Below, piece after piece: positions 53,902-64,000 of a DNA stretch of 64,000 nt. Made by a program: the position numbers and the translations under genes. Positions within the stretch are counted from its first letter, which is position 1. Every line of letters starts with the position of its first letter. The notes below the pieces were generated by a model. It saw only the letters and a list, made by a program, of their open reading frames with translations, ran no database searches and was not told the DNA's origin. The stretch lies in NCBI GenBank assembly GCA_001683985.1, contig MAEO01000208.1, positions 1 through 64,000 on the forward strand, in the 5' to 3' direction. The DNA comes from Smithella sp. M82. Lineage in GTDB: Bacteria > Desulfobacterota > Syntrophia > Syntrophales > Smithellaceae.

Positions 53902-56900
53902 ATGAAGACACTATTTGAAAATTTTACAAATCAATATTCGGTAAGCAAGACTTTACGTTTTGAATTAATTCCGCAGGGCAAAACAAGAGATTTTATTGAA
54001 CAGAAAGGTCTGCTGCAACAGGACGAAGATCGTGCGGAAAAATATAATAAAGTAAAAAAGACGATTGATGAATACCATAAAAATTTCATTGAAAAATCAC
54101 TGAACGGTTTGAAATTAGAAGGGCTTGAGCAGTATAAGACTTTATATCTAAAGCAGGAAAAAGACGATAAAGACAAGAAGTTGTTTGATAAAGAAAAAGA
54201 AAATCTTAGGAAACAGATTGCGAATGCTTTTAGAAACAATGAAAAGTTTAAAACGCTCTTTGCCAAGGAATTAATAAAGAACGATTTGATGAATTTTGCC
54301 TGTGAGGAAGACAAAAAAAACGTAAAAGAATTTGAAGCTTTTACAACTTATTTCACCGGTTTTCACCAGAATAGGGCAAACATGTATGTAGCGGATGAGA
54401 AACGAACGGCTATTGCGAGCCGGCTTATACATGAGAATCTGCCCAAGTTCATTGATAACATCAGGATATTTGAAAAGATGAAAAATGAAGCGCCCGAGCT
54501 TCTTTCCTCTTTTAATCAAACATTAAAGGATATGAAAGATGTTATCAAGGGCACAACATTGGAAGAAATATTTTCACTGGATTATTTCAATAAGACACTT
54601 ACACAATCGGGGATTGACATATATAATTCCGTAATCGGCGGCAGAACACCCGAAGAGGGAAAAACCAAAATCAAGGGTCTGAACGAATACATCAATACGG
54701 ATTACAATCAGAAGCAGACAGACAAGAAAAAAAGACAGCCCAAGTTCAAGCAACTCTACAAACAGATATTGAGCGACAGGCAGAGCCTGTCATTTATTGC
54801 GGGGGCATTCAAAAATGATACTGAAATTCTGGAAGCAATAGAAAAATTCTATGTAAATGAATTGCTGCATTTATCCAGTGAAGGCAAATCAATCAATGTA
54901 TTGGATGCAACCAAAAATGCTGTAAGCAATCTTGAATCTTTCGACCTGACTAAGATTTATTTCAGAAGCGGCGCTTCATTGACCGATGTTTCCAAAAAGG
55001 TATTTGGAGACTGGAGCATTATTAACAGGGCTTTAGATAATTACTACGCAACAACCTATCCCATCAAGCCAAGAGAGAAATCAGAGAAATACGAAGAGCG
55101 GAAAGAGAAATGGCTCAAGCAGGACTTTGACATTAACCTGATACAGACAGCAATCAATCAGTATGAAAACGAAACAGTAAAAGAAAAAAACAGTGGGAAG
55201 GTCATCGCTGATTACTTTGCGAAGTTCTGCGATGACAAAGAGACTGATTTAATTCAGAAGGTCAATGAAGGCTATATAGCTGTCAAGGATTTGCTGAACA
55301 CCCCTTATCCTGAAAATGAGAAGCTCGGGAGCAATAAGGATCAGGTAAAACAGATAAAGGCATTTATGGACAGCATAATGGACATTATGCATTTTGTAAG
55401 ACCGCTGAGCCTGAAGGATACCGATAAAGAGAAAGACGAAACATTCTATAGTCTGTTTACACCTCTATATGACCGTTTGACCCAAACCATCGCACTCTAC
55501 AATAAGGTGCGTAACTACCTGACACAGAAACCATACAGCACGGAAAAGATAAAACTGAACTTTGAAAACTCCACATTGCTGGGTGGATGGGATTTAAATA
55601 AAGAAACAGACAATACAGCCATTATACTGAGGAAAGATAATCTTTATTATCTGGGCATTATGGACAAGAGCCATAACAGGATATTCAGAAACGTACCTAA
55701 AGCGGATAAAAAGGATTCCTGCTACGAGAAAATGGTTTACAAGCTTCTGGCTGGAGCAAATAAAATGCTGCCGAAGGTATTCTTTTCGCAGTCACGGAGA
55801 CAGGAATTTAGTCCGTCGGCGAAACTGCTGGAAAACTACAAGAATGAGACGCACAAAAAAGGTGATAATTTCAACCTGAATCATTGCCATGAATTAATTG
55901 ATTTTTTCAAAGACTCAATCAACAAACACGAGGACTGGAAAAACTTTGATTTCAGGTTTTCAGCCACGTCCGCCTATGCTGATTTGAGCGGATTCTACCA
56001 CGAGGTGGAACATCAGGGCTATAAGATAAGTTTCCAGAGCGCAGCCGATTCCTTCATTGACGATTTGGTCAATGAGGGGAAGCTCTATCTCTTCCAAATA
56101 TACAACAAGGATTTCTCGCCTTTTAGTAAAGGCAAGCCCAACCTGCATACGCTTTACTGGAAGATGCTTTTCGCAGAGGAAAATCTGAAAGACGTTGTTT
56201 ACAAACTGAACGGCGCAGCCGAGATATTTTATCGCAAATTGTCAATTGCCGCAAAAAACAGAACCGTACATAAAGCAAAAGAGATTCTGCAAAATAAAAA
56301 TCCTGATAATCCAAAAGCTACGAGCAAATTTGACTATGATATAATCAAGGATAAACGATACACGCTTGATAAATTCCAGTTTCATGTGCCGATTACCATG
56401 AATTTCAAGGCTGAAGGCATATTCAATATGAACCAGAGGGTCAACCAGTTCCTCAAGGCCAACCCCGATATTAATATCATCGGAATAGACAGGGGAGAAA
56501 GGCATCTGCTTTACTACACCCTGATAAATCAGAAAGGTAAGATTCTCAAACAGGACACCTTGAATGTCATTGCCAATGAAAAGCAGAAAGTTGACTATCA
56601 CAACCTGCTGGACAAGAAAGAGGGTGATAGAGCTACGGCAAGGCAGGAATGGGGCGTAATTGAGACCATTAAAGAACTGAAGGAAGGTTATCTGTCGCAG
56701 GTCATCCACAAACTGACCGATTTGATGATTGAAAACAACGCCATCATTGTGATGGAAGATTTGAACTTCGGTTTCAAGCGAGGAAGGCAGAAGGTGGAGA
56801 AGCAGGTTTACCAGAAGTTTGAGAAAATGCTGATTGATAAACTCAATTACCTTGTCGATAAGAATAAAAAAGCAAATGAACTGGGCGGTCTGCTCAACGC

Positions 56901-57654
56901 CTTCCAGTTAGCGAACAAGTTTGAAAGTTTCCAGAAAATGGGGAAACAGAACGGATTTATTTTTTACGTGCCTGCGTGGAACACAAGCAAGACTGACCCT
57001 GCCACAGGTTTCATTGATTTCCTGAAACCCAGATATGAGAACCTGAAGCAGGCAAAGGACTTCTTTGAGAAGTTTGATTCCATCCATTTCAACAGCAAGG
57101 CAGATTATTTTGAATTTGCTTTTGATTTTAAAAACTTCACCGAAAAGGCAGACGGTGGAAGAACGAAATGGACAGTCTGCGCCACCAATGAGGACCGGTA
57201 TGCCTGGAACAGGGCGTTAAACAACAACAGGGGCGGTCAGGAAAAATACGATATCACAGCAGAACTGAAATCCCTGTTTGACGGAAAGGTGGACTATCAA
57301 AGCGGCAAGGATTTGAAACAGCAGATAGCAAGTCAGGAATCTGCCGATTTCTTCAGGACATTAATGAAATATTTAAGTGTCACTCTTTCATTGCGGCACA
57401 ACAACGGAGAAAAAGGTGAGGCAGAGCAGGATTATATTCTTTCGCCTGTTGCAGATAGTATGGGAAAATTCTTTGATTCAAGGAAAGCAGGTGACGATAT
57501 GCCCAAGAATGCCGACGCCAACGGCGCTTATCATATCGCGCTTAAAGGTTTATGGTGTCTGGAACAGATCAGCAAAACGGACGACTTGAAAAAAGTAAAG
57601 TTAGCCATTAGCAATAAAGAATGGCTTGAATTTGCGCAAACACTAAAAGGATAA
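53902..57654 (+). CDS. cas12a: Cas12a (Cpf1), type V-A effector
   Basis: A 1250-residue RNA-guided DNA endonuclease, very similar to the Smithella Cas12a in length and in long blocks from the N-terminus (NFTNQYSVSKTLRFELIPQG) to the end. The RuvC triad is intact: Asp863 in IIGIDRGERHLLYY, Glu952 in IIVMEDLNFGFK and Asp1205 in NADANGAYHIALKGL. The Nuc-domain Arg is probably Arg1165 in LSLRHNNGE. The protein would process its own pre-crRNA through the AATTTCTACTATTGTAGAT handle and cut T-rich-PAM DNA; both are family knowledge. It heads the cas operon; the next gene starts six bases after its stop. Its base composition is closer to the chromosome than that of the A-rich gene after it. Confidence 0.97.
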   Translation: MKTLFENFTNQYSVSKTLRFELIPQGKTRDFIEQKGLLQQDEDRAEKYNKVKKTIDEYHKNFIEKSLNGLKLEGLEQYKTLYLKQEKDDKDKKLFDKEKENLRKQIANAFRNNEKFKTLFAKELIKNDLMNFACEEDKKNVKEFEAFTTYFTGFHQNRANMYVADEKRTAIASRLIHENLPKFIDNIRIFEKMKNEAPELLSSFNQTLKDMKDVIKGTTLEEIFSLDYFNKTLTQSGIDIYNSVIGGRTPEEGKTKIKGLNEYINTDYNQKQTDKKKRQPKFKQLYKQILSDRQSLSFIAGAFKNDTEILEAIEKFYVNELLHLSSEGKSINVLDATKNAVSNLESFDLTKIYFRSGASLTDVSKKVFGDWSIINRALDNYYATTYPIKPREKSEKYEERKEKWLKQDFDINLIQTAINQYENETVKEKNSGKVIADYFAKFCDDKETDLIQKVNEGYIAVKDLLNTPYPENEKLGSNKDQVKQIKAFMDSIMDIMHFVRPLSLKDTDKEKDETFYSLFTPLYDRLTQTIALYNKVRNYLTQKPYSTEKIKLNFENSTLLGGWDLNKETDNTAIILRKDNLYYLGIMDKSHNRIFRNVPKADKKDSCYEKMVYKLLAGANKMLPKVFFSQSRRQEFSPSAKLLENYKNETHKKGDNFNLNHCHELIDFFKDSINKHEDWKNFDFRFSATSAYADLSGFYHEVEHQGYKISFQSAADSFIDDLVNEGKLYLFQIYNKDFSPFSKGKPNLHTLYWKMLFAEENLKDVVYKLNGAAEIFYRKLSIAAKNRTVHKAKEILQNKNPDNPKATSKFDYDIIKDKRYTLDKFQFHVPITMNFKAEGIFNMNQRVNQFLKANPDINIIGIDRGERHLLYYTLINQKGKILKQDTLNVIANEKQKVDYHNLLDKKEGDRATARQEWGVIETIKELKEGYLSQVIHKLTDLMIENNAIIVMEDLNFGFKRGRQKVEKQVYQKFEKMLIDKLNYLVDKNKKANELGGLLNAFQLANKFESFQKMGKQNGFIFYVPAWNTSKTDPATGFIDFLKPRYENLKQAKDFFEKFDSIHFNSKADYFEFAFDFKNFTEKADGGRTKWTVCATNEDRYAWNRALNNNRGGQEKYDITAELKSLFDGKVDYQSGKDLKQQIASQESADFFRTLMKYLSVTLSLRHNNGEKGEAEQDYILSPVADSMGKFFDSRKAGDDMPKNADANGAYHIALKGLWCLEQISKTDDLKKVKLAISNKEWLEFAQTLKG

Positions 57655-57660
57655 ATTATT

Positions 57661-60600
57661 ATGGAAACAATATTATACCAACGAACAAGATCAATACGGT
57701 TTAAATTAGAACCTATTGAAGCAGAAGAAATAGAAAAAGAAATTACTGTAATCAAAACCCAAGACAATGACGGCTTGGTGCAAGACTGCATATTCTTGGT
57801 TAATAAAGGCAATGAACTTGCAAATAAGCTAAGTAAACTTATTTGTCGTGATTACAACTGTGATGAACAAAACAATATCTCATTAAAACTTAGAAAAGAT
57901 GTGGATGTAAAGTATGTTTGGCTGAGACTTTATACAAAAAATGAATATTATGATTGGAGTGAACCCAATAACAAAACAAAAATATATTCATTAGCTGAAA
58001 TACCTTATTTATCAGAAAAATTTGTGCATTGGTTTGCATCATGGAAAAGGGATTTGGCCATATTAAATGAACAAATAACAAAAAAAACAGAGGAGCAACA
58101 CAATTTAAACAGAAGGGCAGATATAGGTTTGATTATACAATCATTATCCAAGCGCAACAGTTTTCCCTTTATAAAAGAGTTTATAGCAGCAATGAATCCT
58201 AAAAATGCATCTAAAATAGAGATAGAAGAAATCGTAAAAGAAATTGATGAGCTGCTGAATAAGTGCGAAAAAGGATTTTTACCCACCCAATCATCGGGTT
58301 ATCCGATTGCTCGTGCAAGTTTGAATTACTATACTATTTTCAAGAATCCAAAAGATTTTGACAAGGAAATATTGGAATTAAGCGGTGAAAAATTCTGTAA
58401 CGACAATCAAAATGAATGCGAAATATTGAAAGCATTTTTTACGCATTGTTTTGATGTGGATGGGTTTTGTGGAATGTTCTTGGATGTAAAAAAATTAGAA
58501 AACATCTGCTCAAAGTTAAATAGCATAAAGAATTATCAAGAAAATGATAAGCAACTTATCGCAGAAGCCATAGACAATAAAATTAAGCTACTAAACGAAG
58601 AAAAAGACAATAGCAAAAAAAAGAAAGCAAAAAAAATAATTGAACAACTTGAAAATGATAAAAAAATAGTGTGCAACTTTTGGGAACTTCAGGAAAACTT
58701 TTATGTTCAAGAAAGAAATTCTTCCAAAAATAATAACAATAAATACTGCCTCAATAAAAACTATTTTTTGATACAACAGTTATGCCAAAGCATGAAATTA
58801 TTCAAGGCAAGAGAAAAAGCAAGGTTTAACGAAGCTGTACAAAATAATAAGGACTTACCTTATGGTCAGTTGAATCAGTTTTTTCTGTTTTCAGCTATAC
58901 AAATCGGTAATGAAAATGACAAAAGAAAAACTGACAATGAGGTGTTTGATGATTTTATGAAGCACAATAAAGAGCTACATGATATTTCCGATAAAATTAG
59001 CACGCTTAAACAAAACAAAAATTTGGATGAAAAAAATAAAAAAGAATTAGATAAAATATGTACCCAGAAAGATCAAATAGCAAAAAGCAGAGGCAAATAT
59101 TTTACAGATTTAGATCATAATAAAACCTATTTTTCCAATTATGTTAAGTTCTGCAATGTATATAGAGAAGTTGCTTTAAAAGCTGGGCAGCTTAAAGCCA
59201 GAATTAAAGGCATAGAAAAGGAAAAAATAGAATCCCAGCGATTAAAATATTGGTCAGTAATTATTGAAGAGAATAAAAAGCAATATGTCGCTTTTATTCC
59301 TAAAAGTAATGACTATGCAAAAAAAGCTTATGAGAATTATTCAAAAATATATACTAATGATAATTCAATAAACACTTGTCAGTTACATTATTTTGAATCA
59401 CTTACACACAGAGCTTTAGAAAAACTTTGTTTCAGCGGTGTACAAGAAAGAACAAATACCTTTCAACCTGAAATAAAAAAGGAATTATCAATAGAGAAAT
59501 TTCCAAACTATTACGAAAAAGGATATTTCATTAAAGGTGAATATTTTTTCAATGATAAAAAAACAGGTATAAAAGATGAATCCAAACTAATCCAATTCTA
59601 TAAAGATGTACTAAATACGCAATATGCCAAATCAGCGCTTAAAGGCATCCCGTGGGAGCAATTAAAAAAAACTGTTTTAGATATTCAGTTCGAAAATTTT
59701 GATGGATTCCGCCAAGCTCTTGAAAAGTTCAGCTATGTAAAGCATATTAAAACAAAGAAAGATTTATTGAATGAATTATCAAAAGAATATGATGCTCAAA
59801 TATTTGAAATTACCTCTTTAGATTTAAAACGGCAAATCAAAGAGGACGCAAATCTTAAAGAACACACAAAAATATGGATGGAATTTTGGAGCGAAAACAA
59901 CCAAAGTAATAATTACTTGATCAGAATAAATCCGCAATTAACCATCACTTGGCGTGATAGCAAAGAAAGCAGAGAGAAAAAATATGGAGAAGAAACTTCT
60001 TTATATGATGTGAATAAAAATAACCGATTTCTAAAACCGCAATATACAATTTCCTTTACCATTACCGAAAACGCCACAACACAAACAATGAACACAGCAT
60101 TTAAAGATGCGCAAACTAAAAAAGATCAGATTCATGAGTTTAATAAACAATTATTCCAATCATATCAACCTCAATATTTTTTTGGAATAGACGTAGGAAA
60201 TATAGAATTGGCCACCCTGTGTATTATTAATCCTGAAAAAGATTTGAATGAAGAAAAGATGTCAAAAGAATCTTTACAATATTTTGATGTTTATAAGTTG
60301 AAAAAAGACCAATATAATTTCTCTAAGCCCTATCACTTCAAGACGAGGAATGAAACCAGGGAAAGAAAAGCAATAGATAATCTTTCTTATTTTGCAATCG
60401 AAGAAAATTACAAACAAACATTCAATGACGATAATTTTGAAGCGTGTTTTTCTGATTTATTTGAAAAACCGGTTAACACTTGTGCCATTGATCTTACAAC
60501 GGCAAAGGTTTTAGGTGATAAGATATTTCTCAATGGCGATATCAAAACTTATCTTTCGTTAAAAGAACGAAACGCAAGAAGGAAAATTTGTCAAATCATT

Positions 60601-61314
60601 GAAAAACATCCGAACGCTAAACTTCTGATTAATGGAAATAAAATTTTCTTTCAGGAAAGTACATCATGTGAAAGAACCTGCCTTTGCCAAGAACCTATTT
60701 ATTATTTTAATGATAAATATGATAGAGAAGTACAAACTTTGGCAGATATAAATAATAGACTTGAAGATTATATTAAAGATAAAGATAAATCCGAGCTGAT
60801 AGAAGAGAGTAAAATAAATCACCTCAGAGCCGCCATTGCTGCAAATATGACTGGCGTTATCTATCATCTTTTTGAAAAATACCAGAGCTTAATTGTTTTG
60901 GAATATTTAACGATTTCAGATATAGCAAGTCATAAAAAAGGCTTAAAAGCTTTTGAAGGAAACATAACACGTCCATTACAAATTGCATTATTTCGTAAAT
61001 TTTTAAAAAGCAGTCTTGTTCCACCTGCATTGAGTGAAATTATTCAATTGAGAGAAAAAGCAAAGGATAGAATAACAAAAATAGGGATAATAAATTTTAT
61101 TGATAAAACTGCTACTAGCGTTTCTTGTCCAAATTGTCTTGGTAAATTTGAAAATTATAATGATAATAAGAGAAAAGGATTTTGTTTATGTCCTGATTGT
61201 GGTTTTGATACAAGAACTGACCTTAAAGGATTTGAAGGCTTAGACGGCCCCGACAAAGTTGCCGCTTTCAATATTGCCAAAAGAGGATTTGAAGACTTGC
61301 AAAAGCACAAATAA
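57661..61314 (+). CDS. cas12a2: Cas12a2-like RNA-triggered effector nuclease
   Basis: A 1217-residue second effector. The N-terminus (TRSIRFKLEPIE) mirrors the Cas12a wedge start (KTLRFELIPQ). RuvC I is FFGIDVGNIELATL (Asp844), RuvC II is LIVLEYLTISDI (Glu1081) and RuvC III is GPDKVAAFNIAKRGF (Asp1198). Between II and III, where Cas12a has its Nuc domain, there is a zinc ribbon with Cys1156/1159 and Cys1177/1180. Size, triad positions and ribbon agree with Cas12a2, which binds Cas12a-type crRNA, recognises target RNA and then degrades RNA, ssDNA and dsDNA indiscriminately, causing abortive infection. It lies between cas12a and cas4, coupled to both. Codons are much A-richer than those of cas12a, suggesting separate origin. 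Activity is inferred. Confidence 0.85.
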   Translation: METILYQRTRSIRFKLEPIEAEEIEKEITVIKTQDNDGLVQDCIFLVNKGNELANKLSKLICRDYNCDEQNNISLKLRKDVDVKYVWLRLYTKNEYYDWSEPNNKTKIYSLAEIPYLSEKFVHWFASWKRDLAILNEQITKKTEEQHNLNRRADIGLIIQSLSKRNSFPFIKEFIAAMNPKNASKIEIEEIVKEIDELLNKCEKGFLPTQSSGYPIARASLNYYTIFKNPKDFDKEILELSGEKFCNDNQNECEILKAFFTHCFDVDGFCGMFLDVKKLENICSKLNSIKNYQENDKQLIAEAIDNKIKLLNEEKDNSKKKKAKKIIEQLENDKKIVCNFWELQENFYVQERNSSKNNNNKYCLNKNYFLIQQLCQSMKLFKAREKARFNEAVQNNKDLPYGQLNQFFLFSAIQIGNENDKRKTDNEVFDDFMKHNKELHDISDKISTLKQNKNLDEKNKKELDKICTQKDQIAKSRGKYFTDLDHNKTYFSNYVKFCNVYREVALKAGQLKARIKGIEKEKIESQRLKYWSVIIEENKKQYVAFIPKSNDYAKKAYENYSKIYTNDNSINTCQLHYFESLTHRALEKLCFSGVQERTNTFQPEIKKELSIEKFPNYYEKGYFIKGEYFFNDKKTGIKDESKLIQFYKDVLNTQYAKSALKGIPWEQLKKTVLDIQFENFDGFRQALEKFSYVKHIKTKKDLLNELSKEYDAQIFEITSLDLKRQIKEDANLKEHTKIWMEFWSENNQSNNYLIRINPQLTITWRDSKESREKKYGEETSLYDVNKNNRFLKPQYTISFTITENATTQTMNTAFKDAQTKKDQIHEFNKQLFQSYQPQYFFGIDVGNIELATLCIINPEKDLNEEKMSKESLQYFDVYKLKKDQYNFSKPYHFKTRNETRERKAIDNLSYFAIEENYKQTFNDDNFEACFSDLFEKPVNTCAIDLTTAKVLGDKIFLNGDIKTYLSLKERNARRKICQIIEKHPNAKLLINGNKIFFQESTSCERTCLCQEPIYYFNDKYDREVQTLADINNRLEDYIKDKDKSELIEESKINHLRAAIAANMTGVIYHLFEKYQSLIVLEYLTISDIASHKKGLKAFEGNITRPLQIALFRKFLKSSLVPPALSEIIQLREKAKDRITKIGIINFIDKTATSVSCPNCLGKFENYNDNKRKGFCLCPDCGFDTRTDLKGFEGLDGPDKVAAFNIAKRGFEDLQKHK

Positions 61315-61875
61315 ATGGAACCTTACATAACTTTATCATTCTTGAATGATTTTATATTTTGTCCGCGTTCGATTTATTTTCATCAATTATACGGCGGGCT
61401 GAACTATGAATTGTATAAACAAAAGCCGCAAATAGCAGGCGCGGCGGCGCACAAGCCTATCGCAGATAAAAGTTACAGTACCAGAAAGAATGTTTTGCAG
61501 GATGTCGAAGTATTTTCAGAAAAATACAACATCTGCGGAAAGGTTGACGTGTTTGATTGTGAGGCGGGCAAACTAACTGAAAGAAAACGTGAGATAAAAA
61601 CAATCTATGACGGCTATGTCTTTCAGGTTTACGCGCAGTGTCATGCATTAAGAGAAATGGGTTATACGGTCAATGAAATTGTTATTCACGATCTGACGCA
61701 TAATAAAAACTATCCGATCCCGCTTCCTGAGAATGATGCGCAAATGCAGTCAAAGTTTGAAAAACTGATTCAAGAAATTAATTGTTTCAAAATTGATGGT
61801 GCAGCATTTGAACCGAACAGATCGAAATGTGAGCGATGTATCTATTCGCAACTATGTGATGTTTCCCCATGTTAA
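61315..61875 (+). CDS. cas4: Cas4 exonuclease
   Basis: A 186-residue RecB-family nuclease that trims prespacers and helps select PAM and orientation with Cas1-Cas2. Four Cys for the [4Fe-4S] are present: Cys16 (FIFCPRSIYF), and Cys172, Cys175 and Cys181 at the C-terminus (CERCIYSQLC). Nuclease residues appear as His46 (AAAHK), Asp78 (GKVDVF), Glu89 and Lys91 (LTERK) and the FQVYAQ motif at 103-108. It begins at the base after the cas12a2 stop and overlaps cas1 by 7 bp. The protein looks intact although its partner Cas1 is not. Confidence 0.93.
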   Translation: MEPYITLSFLNDFIFCPRSIYFHQLYGGLNYELYKQKPQIAGAAAHKPIADKSYSTRKNVLQDVEVFSEKYNICGKVDVFDCEAGKLTERKREIKTIYDGYVFQVYAQCHALREMGYTVNEIVIHDLTHNKNYPIPLPENDAQMQSKFEKLIQEINCFKIDGAAFEPNRSKCERCIYSQLCDVSPC

Positions 61876-62178
61876 GCTACCCTGATTTTAAAGAGAAAAC
61901 GATAGTTGTCGTCTTTACAAACGAAGGCCAGCGGTTTTCATTTCAAAACGATAATTTGATTGTAACTGATGCAGATGAAAAGGTGATTCTGCAAACAACC
62001 TGCTACCGCATGCTGGCTTTATGGATTGTCGGGCATTGTGTTGTAACTTCCGGCTTGCTCGAGCGAAGCAAGAAATTTGCTTTCCCGATTTAAAAGTTAC
62101 TATCGCGCATTCATACGGCAAAAACAAATAAACGATTATCCTGTTTTTATCATCAATGAGTCTGTAAACAGGGCGTAG
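61869..62178 (+). pseudogene. cas1: cas1 with a large internal deletion
   Basis: The first ~74 residues are the normal Cas1 beginning (KTIVVVFTNEGQRFSFQNDN, then TCYRMLALWIVGHCVVTSGLLERSKKFAFPI), ending in TAA at about 62091. In another frame, from about 62083 to the TAG at 62178, the sequence reads KSYYRAFIRQKQINDYPVFI, which resembles the extreme C-terminus of type V Cas1. So about 200 or more central residues are gone and the frame is changed. The lost part contains the metal-binding Glu/His/Asp of the integrase, so this cannot insert spacers. cas2 begins four bases after the C-terminal remnant, as it would in an intact operon. Confidence 0.88.
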
Positions 62179-62182
62179 CTGT

Positions 62183-62455
62183 ATGCTTTTAGTGTCGTAT
62201 GATATCAGCAACGATAAATTGCGAACGCGCTTTGCAAAATATTTAAGCAAATATGGAAACCGCTTGCAATATTCGGTTTTTGAGATTAAAAATAGCGATA
62301 GAATTATTGAAAATATTACAACCGAAATAGAAGAATATTATAGCGGTAAGTTTGAACAGACGGACAGTGTCATAATATTCATTTTAAGTAAAACTTGTGA
62401 AATAATAAAATTCGGTTATGCTAAAAATAGCGATGAGGACTTGATAATAATGTAG
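62183..62455 (+). CDS. cas2: Cas2
   Basis: A 90-residue ferredoxin-fold protein that dimerises and bridges two Cas1 dimers in the integration complex. The start MLLVSYDISNDKLRTRFAKYLSKYGNR has the conserved Asp7 after beta-1. LQYSVFEIKNS and DSVIIFIL are the following strands. Length is normal. The ribosome-binding site is poor, so expression probably relied on coupling to cas1, whose original stop is kept four bases upstream. Without Cas1 it has no known integration role. Confidence 0.93.
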   Translation: MLLVSYDISNDKLRTRFAKYLSKYGNRLQYSVFEIKNSDRIIENITTEIEEYYSGKFEQTDSVIIFILSKTCEIIKFGYAKNSDEDLIIM

Positions 62456-62594
62456 CCGCTGGTTTATTTGCAAACCGGGGTCTTAATGTCAAAATATGGC
62501 TGATTTTATGGTATTTCAGCAACTTAGGCTTAAGCGTGAAATAGAATTGTGCTTATTAAACAACTACATAGCCAGATGCTATAAGTTGTTATCT
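62456..62594 (+). promoter_or_regulatory. CRISPR leader
   Basis: 139 bp of AT-rich sequence between cas2 and the first repeat, on the expected (upstream) side for a Cas12a array. An inverted repeat AACAACT (62559-62565) / AGTTGTT (62584-62590) ends four bases before the first repeat. No anti-repeat or tracrRNA-like pairing to the repeat is visible, in line with type V-A. Confidence 0.7.
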
Positions 62595-64000
62595 GTCTGA
62601 CAGACAGATTGAATTTCTACTATTGTAGATACTGCTTGACTCAGCAATAATTCTTGGTCTGACAGACAGATTGAATTTCTACTATTGTAGATATACAAAA
62701 CATCCCTATACGATTCAAGTCTGACAGACAGATTGAATTTCTACTATTGTAGATCGCGACAAAACTGGTTGGAAATTATTGTCTGACAGACAGATTGAAT
62801 TTCTACTATTGTAGATTTAGTTGACTTTGTAGTTCTATCAATGTCTGACAGACAGATTGAATTTCTACTATTGTAGATTAATCAATATCGTCCAGAGTGG
62901 AAATTGGTCTGACAGACAGATTGAATTTCTACTATTGTAGATTTTAACAAAACCTGTCCAGTTAATGAAGTCTGACAGACAGATTGAATTTCTACTATTG
63001 TAGATTAGAAAAATATTACATTCCATTTTTGTCTGACAGACAGATTGAATTTCTACTATTGTAGATCAATAAACTTTAATGATTATCCCAATAGTCTGAC
63101 AGACAGATTGAATTTCTACTATTGTAGATAGCGTGAATCGGTTTATATCGCGGAAGTCTGACAGACAGATTGAATTTCTACTATTGTAGATTCTTTTGCT
63201 CTGACTAATACAGATAGTGTCTGACAGACAGATTGAATTTCTACTATTGTAGATATTCGCGCAGATATTCCGGTATGCCTGTCTGACAGACAGATTGAAT
63301 TTCTACTATTGTAGATATGATACAGCCCCGACACAGGCCGCTTTGTCTGACAGACAGATTGAATTTCTACTATTGTAGATCATTGGATAAATACTGCCAT
63401 CATCAGCGTCTGACAGACAGATTGAATTTCTACTATTGTAGATCCTTGCTACATTTTCTTTATTCATTTGTCTGACAGACAGATTGAATTTCTACTATTG
63501 TAGATGATTTGTGGTCCGGAACGGCCTGCTCGTCTGACAGACAGATTGAATTTCTACTATTGTAGATTCGAGTGATGCAATGCGAGACTTTTTCTCGTCT
63601 GACAGACAGATTGAATTTCTACTATTGTAAATTTTGGTTTGGGGGGCATCCGCCCCCCTGTGTCTGACAGACAGATTGAATTTCTACTATTGTAGATCCT
63701 TGGAAGTTAAACATATCTTTGATGGTCTGACAGACAGATTGAATTTCTACTATTGTAGATATCGCCTCGCCTGCTGTAATCATTTTTGTCTGACAGACAG
63801 ATTGAATTTCTACTATTGTAGATAATGCTAATGCTTTCATTTTTTCATAGTCTGACAGACAGATTGAATTTCTACTATTGTAGATGTCCGGATTCTCAAC
63901 CAGTTGTAGGGGAGGTCTGACAGACAGATTGAATTTCTACTATTGTAGATTTTGGTTTGGGGGGGCATCCGCCCCCCTGCGTCTGACAGACAGATTGAAT
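62595..64000 (+). CRISPR. Type V-A CRISPR array, at least 22 spacers, open at the window end
   Basis: Twenty-two full 36-bp repeats and the first 20 bases of a 23rd, with 22 spacers of 25-30 bp (mostly 26-27). The repeat starts GTCTGACAGACAGATTG, where GTCTG-A-CAGAC is a perfect small palindrome, and ends AATTTCTACTATTGTAGAT, the Cas12a handle with stem TCTAC/GTAGA. Transcription is from the leader to the right, giving handle-then-spacer crRNAs. All complete repeats are identical except number 17 (63597-63632), with G to A at 63630. Spacers 17 (63633-63661) and 22 (63951-63980) are near-identical. Open frames over the array are repeat artefacts. The array continues beyond 64000. Confidence 0.99.

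Follow-up and report, generated by a model that had tools for sequence, protein, structure and literature searches.

The window analysed here is a 64,000-nt stretch of Smithella sp. M82 DNA, taken from a contig of 75,880 bp (C184); the genome was rated 100% complete and its assembly consists of 235 contigs. A type V CRISPR locus with all genes on the plus strand lies at the end of the window. It starts with an intact cas12a (cpf1; 53902-57654, 1250 aa; TIGR04330, 1473 bits at a cut-off of 300), followed by a second effector gene with an intact ORF (57661-61314, 1217 aa), for which the closest solved proteins are Cas12a3 nucleases, and by an intact cas4 (61315-61875, 186 aa; TIGR04328 cas4_PREFRAN, E 3.9e-63, 212.7 bits at a cut-off of 70). 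Next come the remains of cas1, an intact cas2 (62183-62455, 90 aa; PF09827, E 6e-16; TIGR01573, 43.3 bits at a cut-off of 24.5) and the CRISPR leader (62456-62594). The array begins at 62595, reaches the window end at 64000 and continues for 81 bases on the same contig, up to contig position 64081. It comprises 24 repeats of 36 nt and 23 spacers of 25-30 nt. The repeats are identical in 23 of 24 cases, the remaining one having a single change, and end in a TCTAC-N4-GTAGA stem (AATTTCTACTATTGTAGAT in 23 of the 24, with one single change). Cas12a, the type V cas4 and cas2 beside the array, and the repeat stem place the locus in type V-A, whereas an intact cas1 is missing. It was filed as a degenerate V-A locus, since only positions 1-71 and 290-316 of the Cas1 profile remain and no other copy exists.

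The intact counterpart of this locus is found in Smithella SCADC (JQDQ01000121, L026/L032 of genome G008), with cas1 at L026:11481-12461 on the minus strand. Both loci share the order cas12a, Cas12a3-like effector, cas4, cas1, cas2, leader and array. The amino acid identity is 90-95% for Cas12a (94.5%), Cas4 and Cas2 (90%), and the leaders are clearly alignable. In SCADC, however, cas1 is intact (326 aa) and the array has 40 repeats. The crRNA-forming 3' part of the repeat is identical in both Smithella loci, whereas the 5' part differs (GTCTGACAGACAGATTG vs GTCCAAAGGACGGATTA). The two arrays have not a single spacer in common. The second effectors are only about 43% identical (window 57672-61124 vs L026:13016-16210), whereas Cas12a, the last ~190 bases of the effector gene, cas4 and cas2 are 86-95% identical between M82 and SCADC. 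From this pattern, recombination inside a conserved locus seems to have exchanged the central part of the effector gene.

The sequence-only reading had described cas1 as gutted by an internal deletion. Profile matches and the alignment with SCADC agree with this and give one continuous loss of 671 bp relative to the intact SCADC gene (981 bp, 326 aa), leaving 310 bp of cas1 sequence (61869-62178). The 5' remnant (61869-62093, plus strand) consists of codons 1-74 and closes in a TAA stop (62091-62093) made at the junction. It matches positions 1-70 of the type V Cas1 profile TIGR04329 (317 positions) with an E-value of 2e-23 and has 94.6% amino acid identity to SCADC Cas1. The 3' remnant (62092-62178, plus strand) holds about 28 C-terminal codons and a TAG stop, matches profile positions 292-316 of 317 (E 2e-5; 290-316 in the search of the whole genome) and is 82-85% identical to SCADC Cas1 at the amino acid level. 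As 671 is not divisible by 3, it reads in the +1 frame with respect to the 5' remnant. The earlier description of ~74 N-terminal and some C-terminal residues surviving in different frames was thus exact according to ORFs and profile matches. Residues 75 to about 298 (SCADC numbering) are gone, the catalytic core among them. In SCADC Cas1, the deleted part contains the motifs EGVSS (~161), YHQFF (~222) and DLVEPFR (~235). Matched by motif rather than by alignment, the DLVEPFR region should hold the catalytic glutamate equivalent to Francisella E242, mutation of which almost abolishes integration (PMC13034035). The gap between the old cas1 stop codon and the cas2 start codon is 4 bases and, as a speculation, the lost cas1 termination may cut cas2 translation if the two genes are coupled.

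The junction was placed at 62092-62093 (plus strand) by a three-way alignment with both SCADC arms. No direct repeat or microhomology beyond 0-1 shared nt was found at the breakpoints in the SCADC allele; this comparison speaks against a deletion between direct repeats or microhomologies. The locus is known from a single draft assembly in 235 contigs and, hence, an assembly or amplification artefact was considered, in which case the organism itself would not carry the deletion. However, there is no breakpoint repeat which an assembler could have collapsed. Apart from the deletion, the genes are ordered and spaced normally, as in SCADC, and both flanks lie on one contig. An artefact is therefore regarded as very unlikely.

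The age of the deletion was estimated from the substitutions separating the remnants from SCADC cas1. For the 5' remnant, with 27 synonymous changes against 4 nonsynonymous ones, dN/dS is 0.024; the 3' remnant gives 0.10. The intact neighbours give 0.087 (cas4) and 0.094 (cas2); hence, the remnants are no worse. As the remnants still show purifying selection, the deletion is taken to be recent. With 8 nonsynonymous changes at about 233 sites, the time without constraint is capped at about 14% of the branch of the M82 lineage, assuming that this branch equals half of the pairwise dS and ignoring recombination. The dS values against SCADC range from 0.23 (cas12a) to 0.98 (5' part of cas1), so recombination probably occurs at the locus.

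The second effector had been taken for an RNA-triggered suicide effector. A PDB search with the window protein alone returned two Cas12a3 proteins only. Using a profile of five relatives, the Cas12a3 chains scored 900 and 846 bits, compared to 68 bits for Cas12a2 (8d49), which rules out Cas12a2 and makes the protein Cas12a3-like. In a tree without a Cas12a4 reference, the window effector has a long branch, lies close to SCADC and does not fall within the core Cas12a3 group. D844 and D1198 are invariant in the alignment of the five relatives; E1081 is conserved with SCADC, but variable in the five-way alignment. Cas12a3 nucleases, the closest solved relatives of the M82 protein, cleave tRNA tails after RNA recognition and halt growth without DNA damage (Dmytrenko et al. 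2026, PMC12851939), and a member from Smithella sp. M82 was characterised in the same study. RNA-triggered activity is accordingly attributed to M82 by homology: the M82 effector would be of the RNA-triggered type, and the earlier designation is sharpened to Cas12a3-like by the profile scores.

Based on these data, we consider it highly probable that a single recent deletion of 671 bp removed the cas1 core from a V-A locus with Cas12a and a Cas12a3-like effector, by way of the ordinary, repeated loss of adaptation modules. The deletion took out the catalytic core and left the neighbouring genes intact. Its most likely cause is the recurrent adaptation-module loss in V-A systems, which may be neutral or reflect a general cost of acquisition, and it would not be a response particular to the RNA-triggered effector. 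Thus, the loss of cas1 probably represents ordinary decay and not a special adaptation.

The sequence-only reading had suggested a possible adaptive shut-down: where an RNA-triggered effector arrests growth, self-spacers are costly, so that losing acquisition would be favoured by the lower risk. A Cas12a3-like effector is indeed present at the locus, and type V-A acquisition captures some chromosomal spacers (PMC9419969). All 23 spacers were searched against the genome and only the array itself was matched above chance level, the best match outside the array being 82% over 34 nt across two joined spacers. The absence of a self-matching spacer argues against such a shut-down. Furthermore, the state of cas1 was compared between relatives of the effector and other Cas12a loci. 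Effector relatives were not detected in genome or viral contigs using the window protein alone. Using a two-sequence alignment, 15 loci were obtained in genome contigs, including that of SCADC, and none in viral contigs. L035 and L038 (contig ends) and L042 (frameshifts) were left out, resulting in 12 assessable loci. The cas1 frameshift of L042 was not scored as a loss, because the adjoining cas4 has a frameshift as well and sequencing errors are the probable reason. An intact cas1 is present at 11 of the 12 other assessable loci (SCADC, L033, L034, L036, L037, L040, L041, L043, L044, L045 and L046). In the published set, cas1, cas2 and cas4 are present at most Cas12a3/Cas12a4 loci (PMC12851939). 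The one exception is L039 (Parcubacteria), which has lost cas4 and cas1 but keeps about 27 repeats and part of cas2; this relative would fit a shut-down. Its Cas12a is divergent and was matched only in pieces. At L045/L060 (a Spirochaetaceae MAG), cas4 adjoins the effector and cas1-cas2 follow on that contig at a distance of about 20 kb; the adaptation module may have been split by an insertion, or a second locus may be present.

For a base rate, Cas12a was sought in 393 genomes of the order to which the Bacteroidales genome G168 belongs; 16 of them gave a match and 14 were assessable. An intact type V cas1 is present in seven of these (G310, G317, G360, G377, G489, G549 and G556) and lacking in the other seven (G233, G300, G303, G327, G375, G376 and G400). 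Loss is therefore more frequent among the Bacteroidales Cas12a loci than in the effector family, opposite to the prediction of an adaptive shut-down. Fisher's exact test for cas1 loss in the effector family versus Bacteroidales gives p = 0.036 when the window is left out, p = 0.10 when it is included and p = 0.24 if L042 is also scored as a loss, for two small samples which differ in taxonomy, the base rate being from draft genomes of another phylum. With samples small and taxonomically unlike, and a second effector conceivable elsewhere in the genomes of the G3xx/G4xx Cas12a loci, the survey serves as a check on the self-spacer claim and not as proof of the opposite. In this survey, cas1 loss is not commoner alongside the RNA-triggered effector, which weakens an otherwise attractive adaptive explanation, and we now regard it as highly improbable. 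If it were true, an adaptive immune system would have been made fixed to avoid autoimmunity.

The Bacteroidales loci L064-L069 and L073 resemble the M82 locus in that Cas12a and, mostly, the array are kept and cas1 is lost by internal deletion. They differ in belonging to another phylum and in that the deletions usually take more than cas1: repeated deletions removed cas1 together with parts of cas4 and cas2. In L068, codons 1-70 of cas4 are fused straight to codon 11 of cas2, and in L073 codons 1-33 of cas4 are joined to codon 48 of cas2. L067 has only codons 1-29 of cas4, beside an array of 39 repeats, whereas L069 has an internally deleted cas1 and retains Cas12a. This recurrence suggests that the loss of the adaptation module, with Cas12a kept, is common in type V-A, affecting about half of the Bacteroidales Cas12a loci sampled.

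Acquisition in type V-A systems cannot do without its core of Cas1 and Cas2 (PMC9419969), and integration stops in Cas1 active-site mutants (PMC13034035). Another type V Cas1 elsewhere in the genome, a check proposed along with the earlier reading, was sought by a profile search of the whole assembly. None was found: apart from the remnants themselves, only two matches were obtained, both much weaker (98 and 119 bits, at a cut-off of 300). One of these belongs to a type I-C locus on C39, together with cas7, cas4 and cas2. The other is type III-like and is found on C192, where its neighbours are two Cas2-like genes as well as a protein resembling Csm6/Csx1; its contig carries a different repeat, containing TCGCAATCCCTTCGTGAATCAGGTCTTT. 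Both type labels were read from the neighbouring proteins. Acquisition in trans, by either of these Cas1-Cas2 pairs or by a type V Cas1 on a plasmid that the assembly does not include, would agree with two intact Cas1 genes having Cas2 neighbours, a well-preserved leader and repeats, and an array without decay, but is the least probable of the alternatives and can hardly be upheld, as neither Cas1 is of type V, the repeat at the type III-like locus is unrelated and V-A integration requires that the system's own Cas1 recognise motifs at the repeat ends (PMC13034035).

As type V-A acquisition needs both Cas1 and Cas2, the M82 locus should not acquire spacers. The earlier claim that spacer acquisition should be off here is well supported by the destroyed cas1, a genome without another type V Cas1 and the published requirement for Cas1. 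Without Cas1, the array would gain no new spacers. The use of the stored spacers is expected to go on, because effectors and array are intact; the 23 spacers would still be transcribed and be usable by both effectors. A long-standing 'frozen memory', as it was termed earlier, is contradicted by the dN/dS values of the remnants: these have not drifted, so any freeze would have lasted for a short time only.

Deletion or truncation of cas1 at partly kept loci is known from the I-B system of Bacteroides fragilis (PMC5704556) and the I-C system of Streptococcus mutans UA159 (PMC9522601). These are other CRISPR types and, unlike in M82, the effector genes were lost as well in B. fragilis. Compared to the core group of Cas12a3 loci, M82 is distinguished by the long branch of its effector and by the lack of a working cas1. 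The locus provides a recent and well-delimited case of a dual-effector type V system that lost cas1 and, with the intact orthologue from the same genus, a clean before/after pair. The question of cas1 loss with Cas12a kept is testable at scale.

Protospacers for the array were not found in phage records. Three near-identical spacers (nos. 17, 22 and 23 at 63633-63661, 63951-63980 and, beyond the window, C184 64017-64045) encode a strong GGGGGG/CCCCCC hairpin, with a crRNA fold z-score of -4.4. Allowing for up to 3 mismatches, this hairpin spacer matches only its three array copies in the genome, and a source was not found in viral contigs. The first and last bases are not the same in the three spacers, which would fit an independent uptake of each from variants of a single repeated element.
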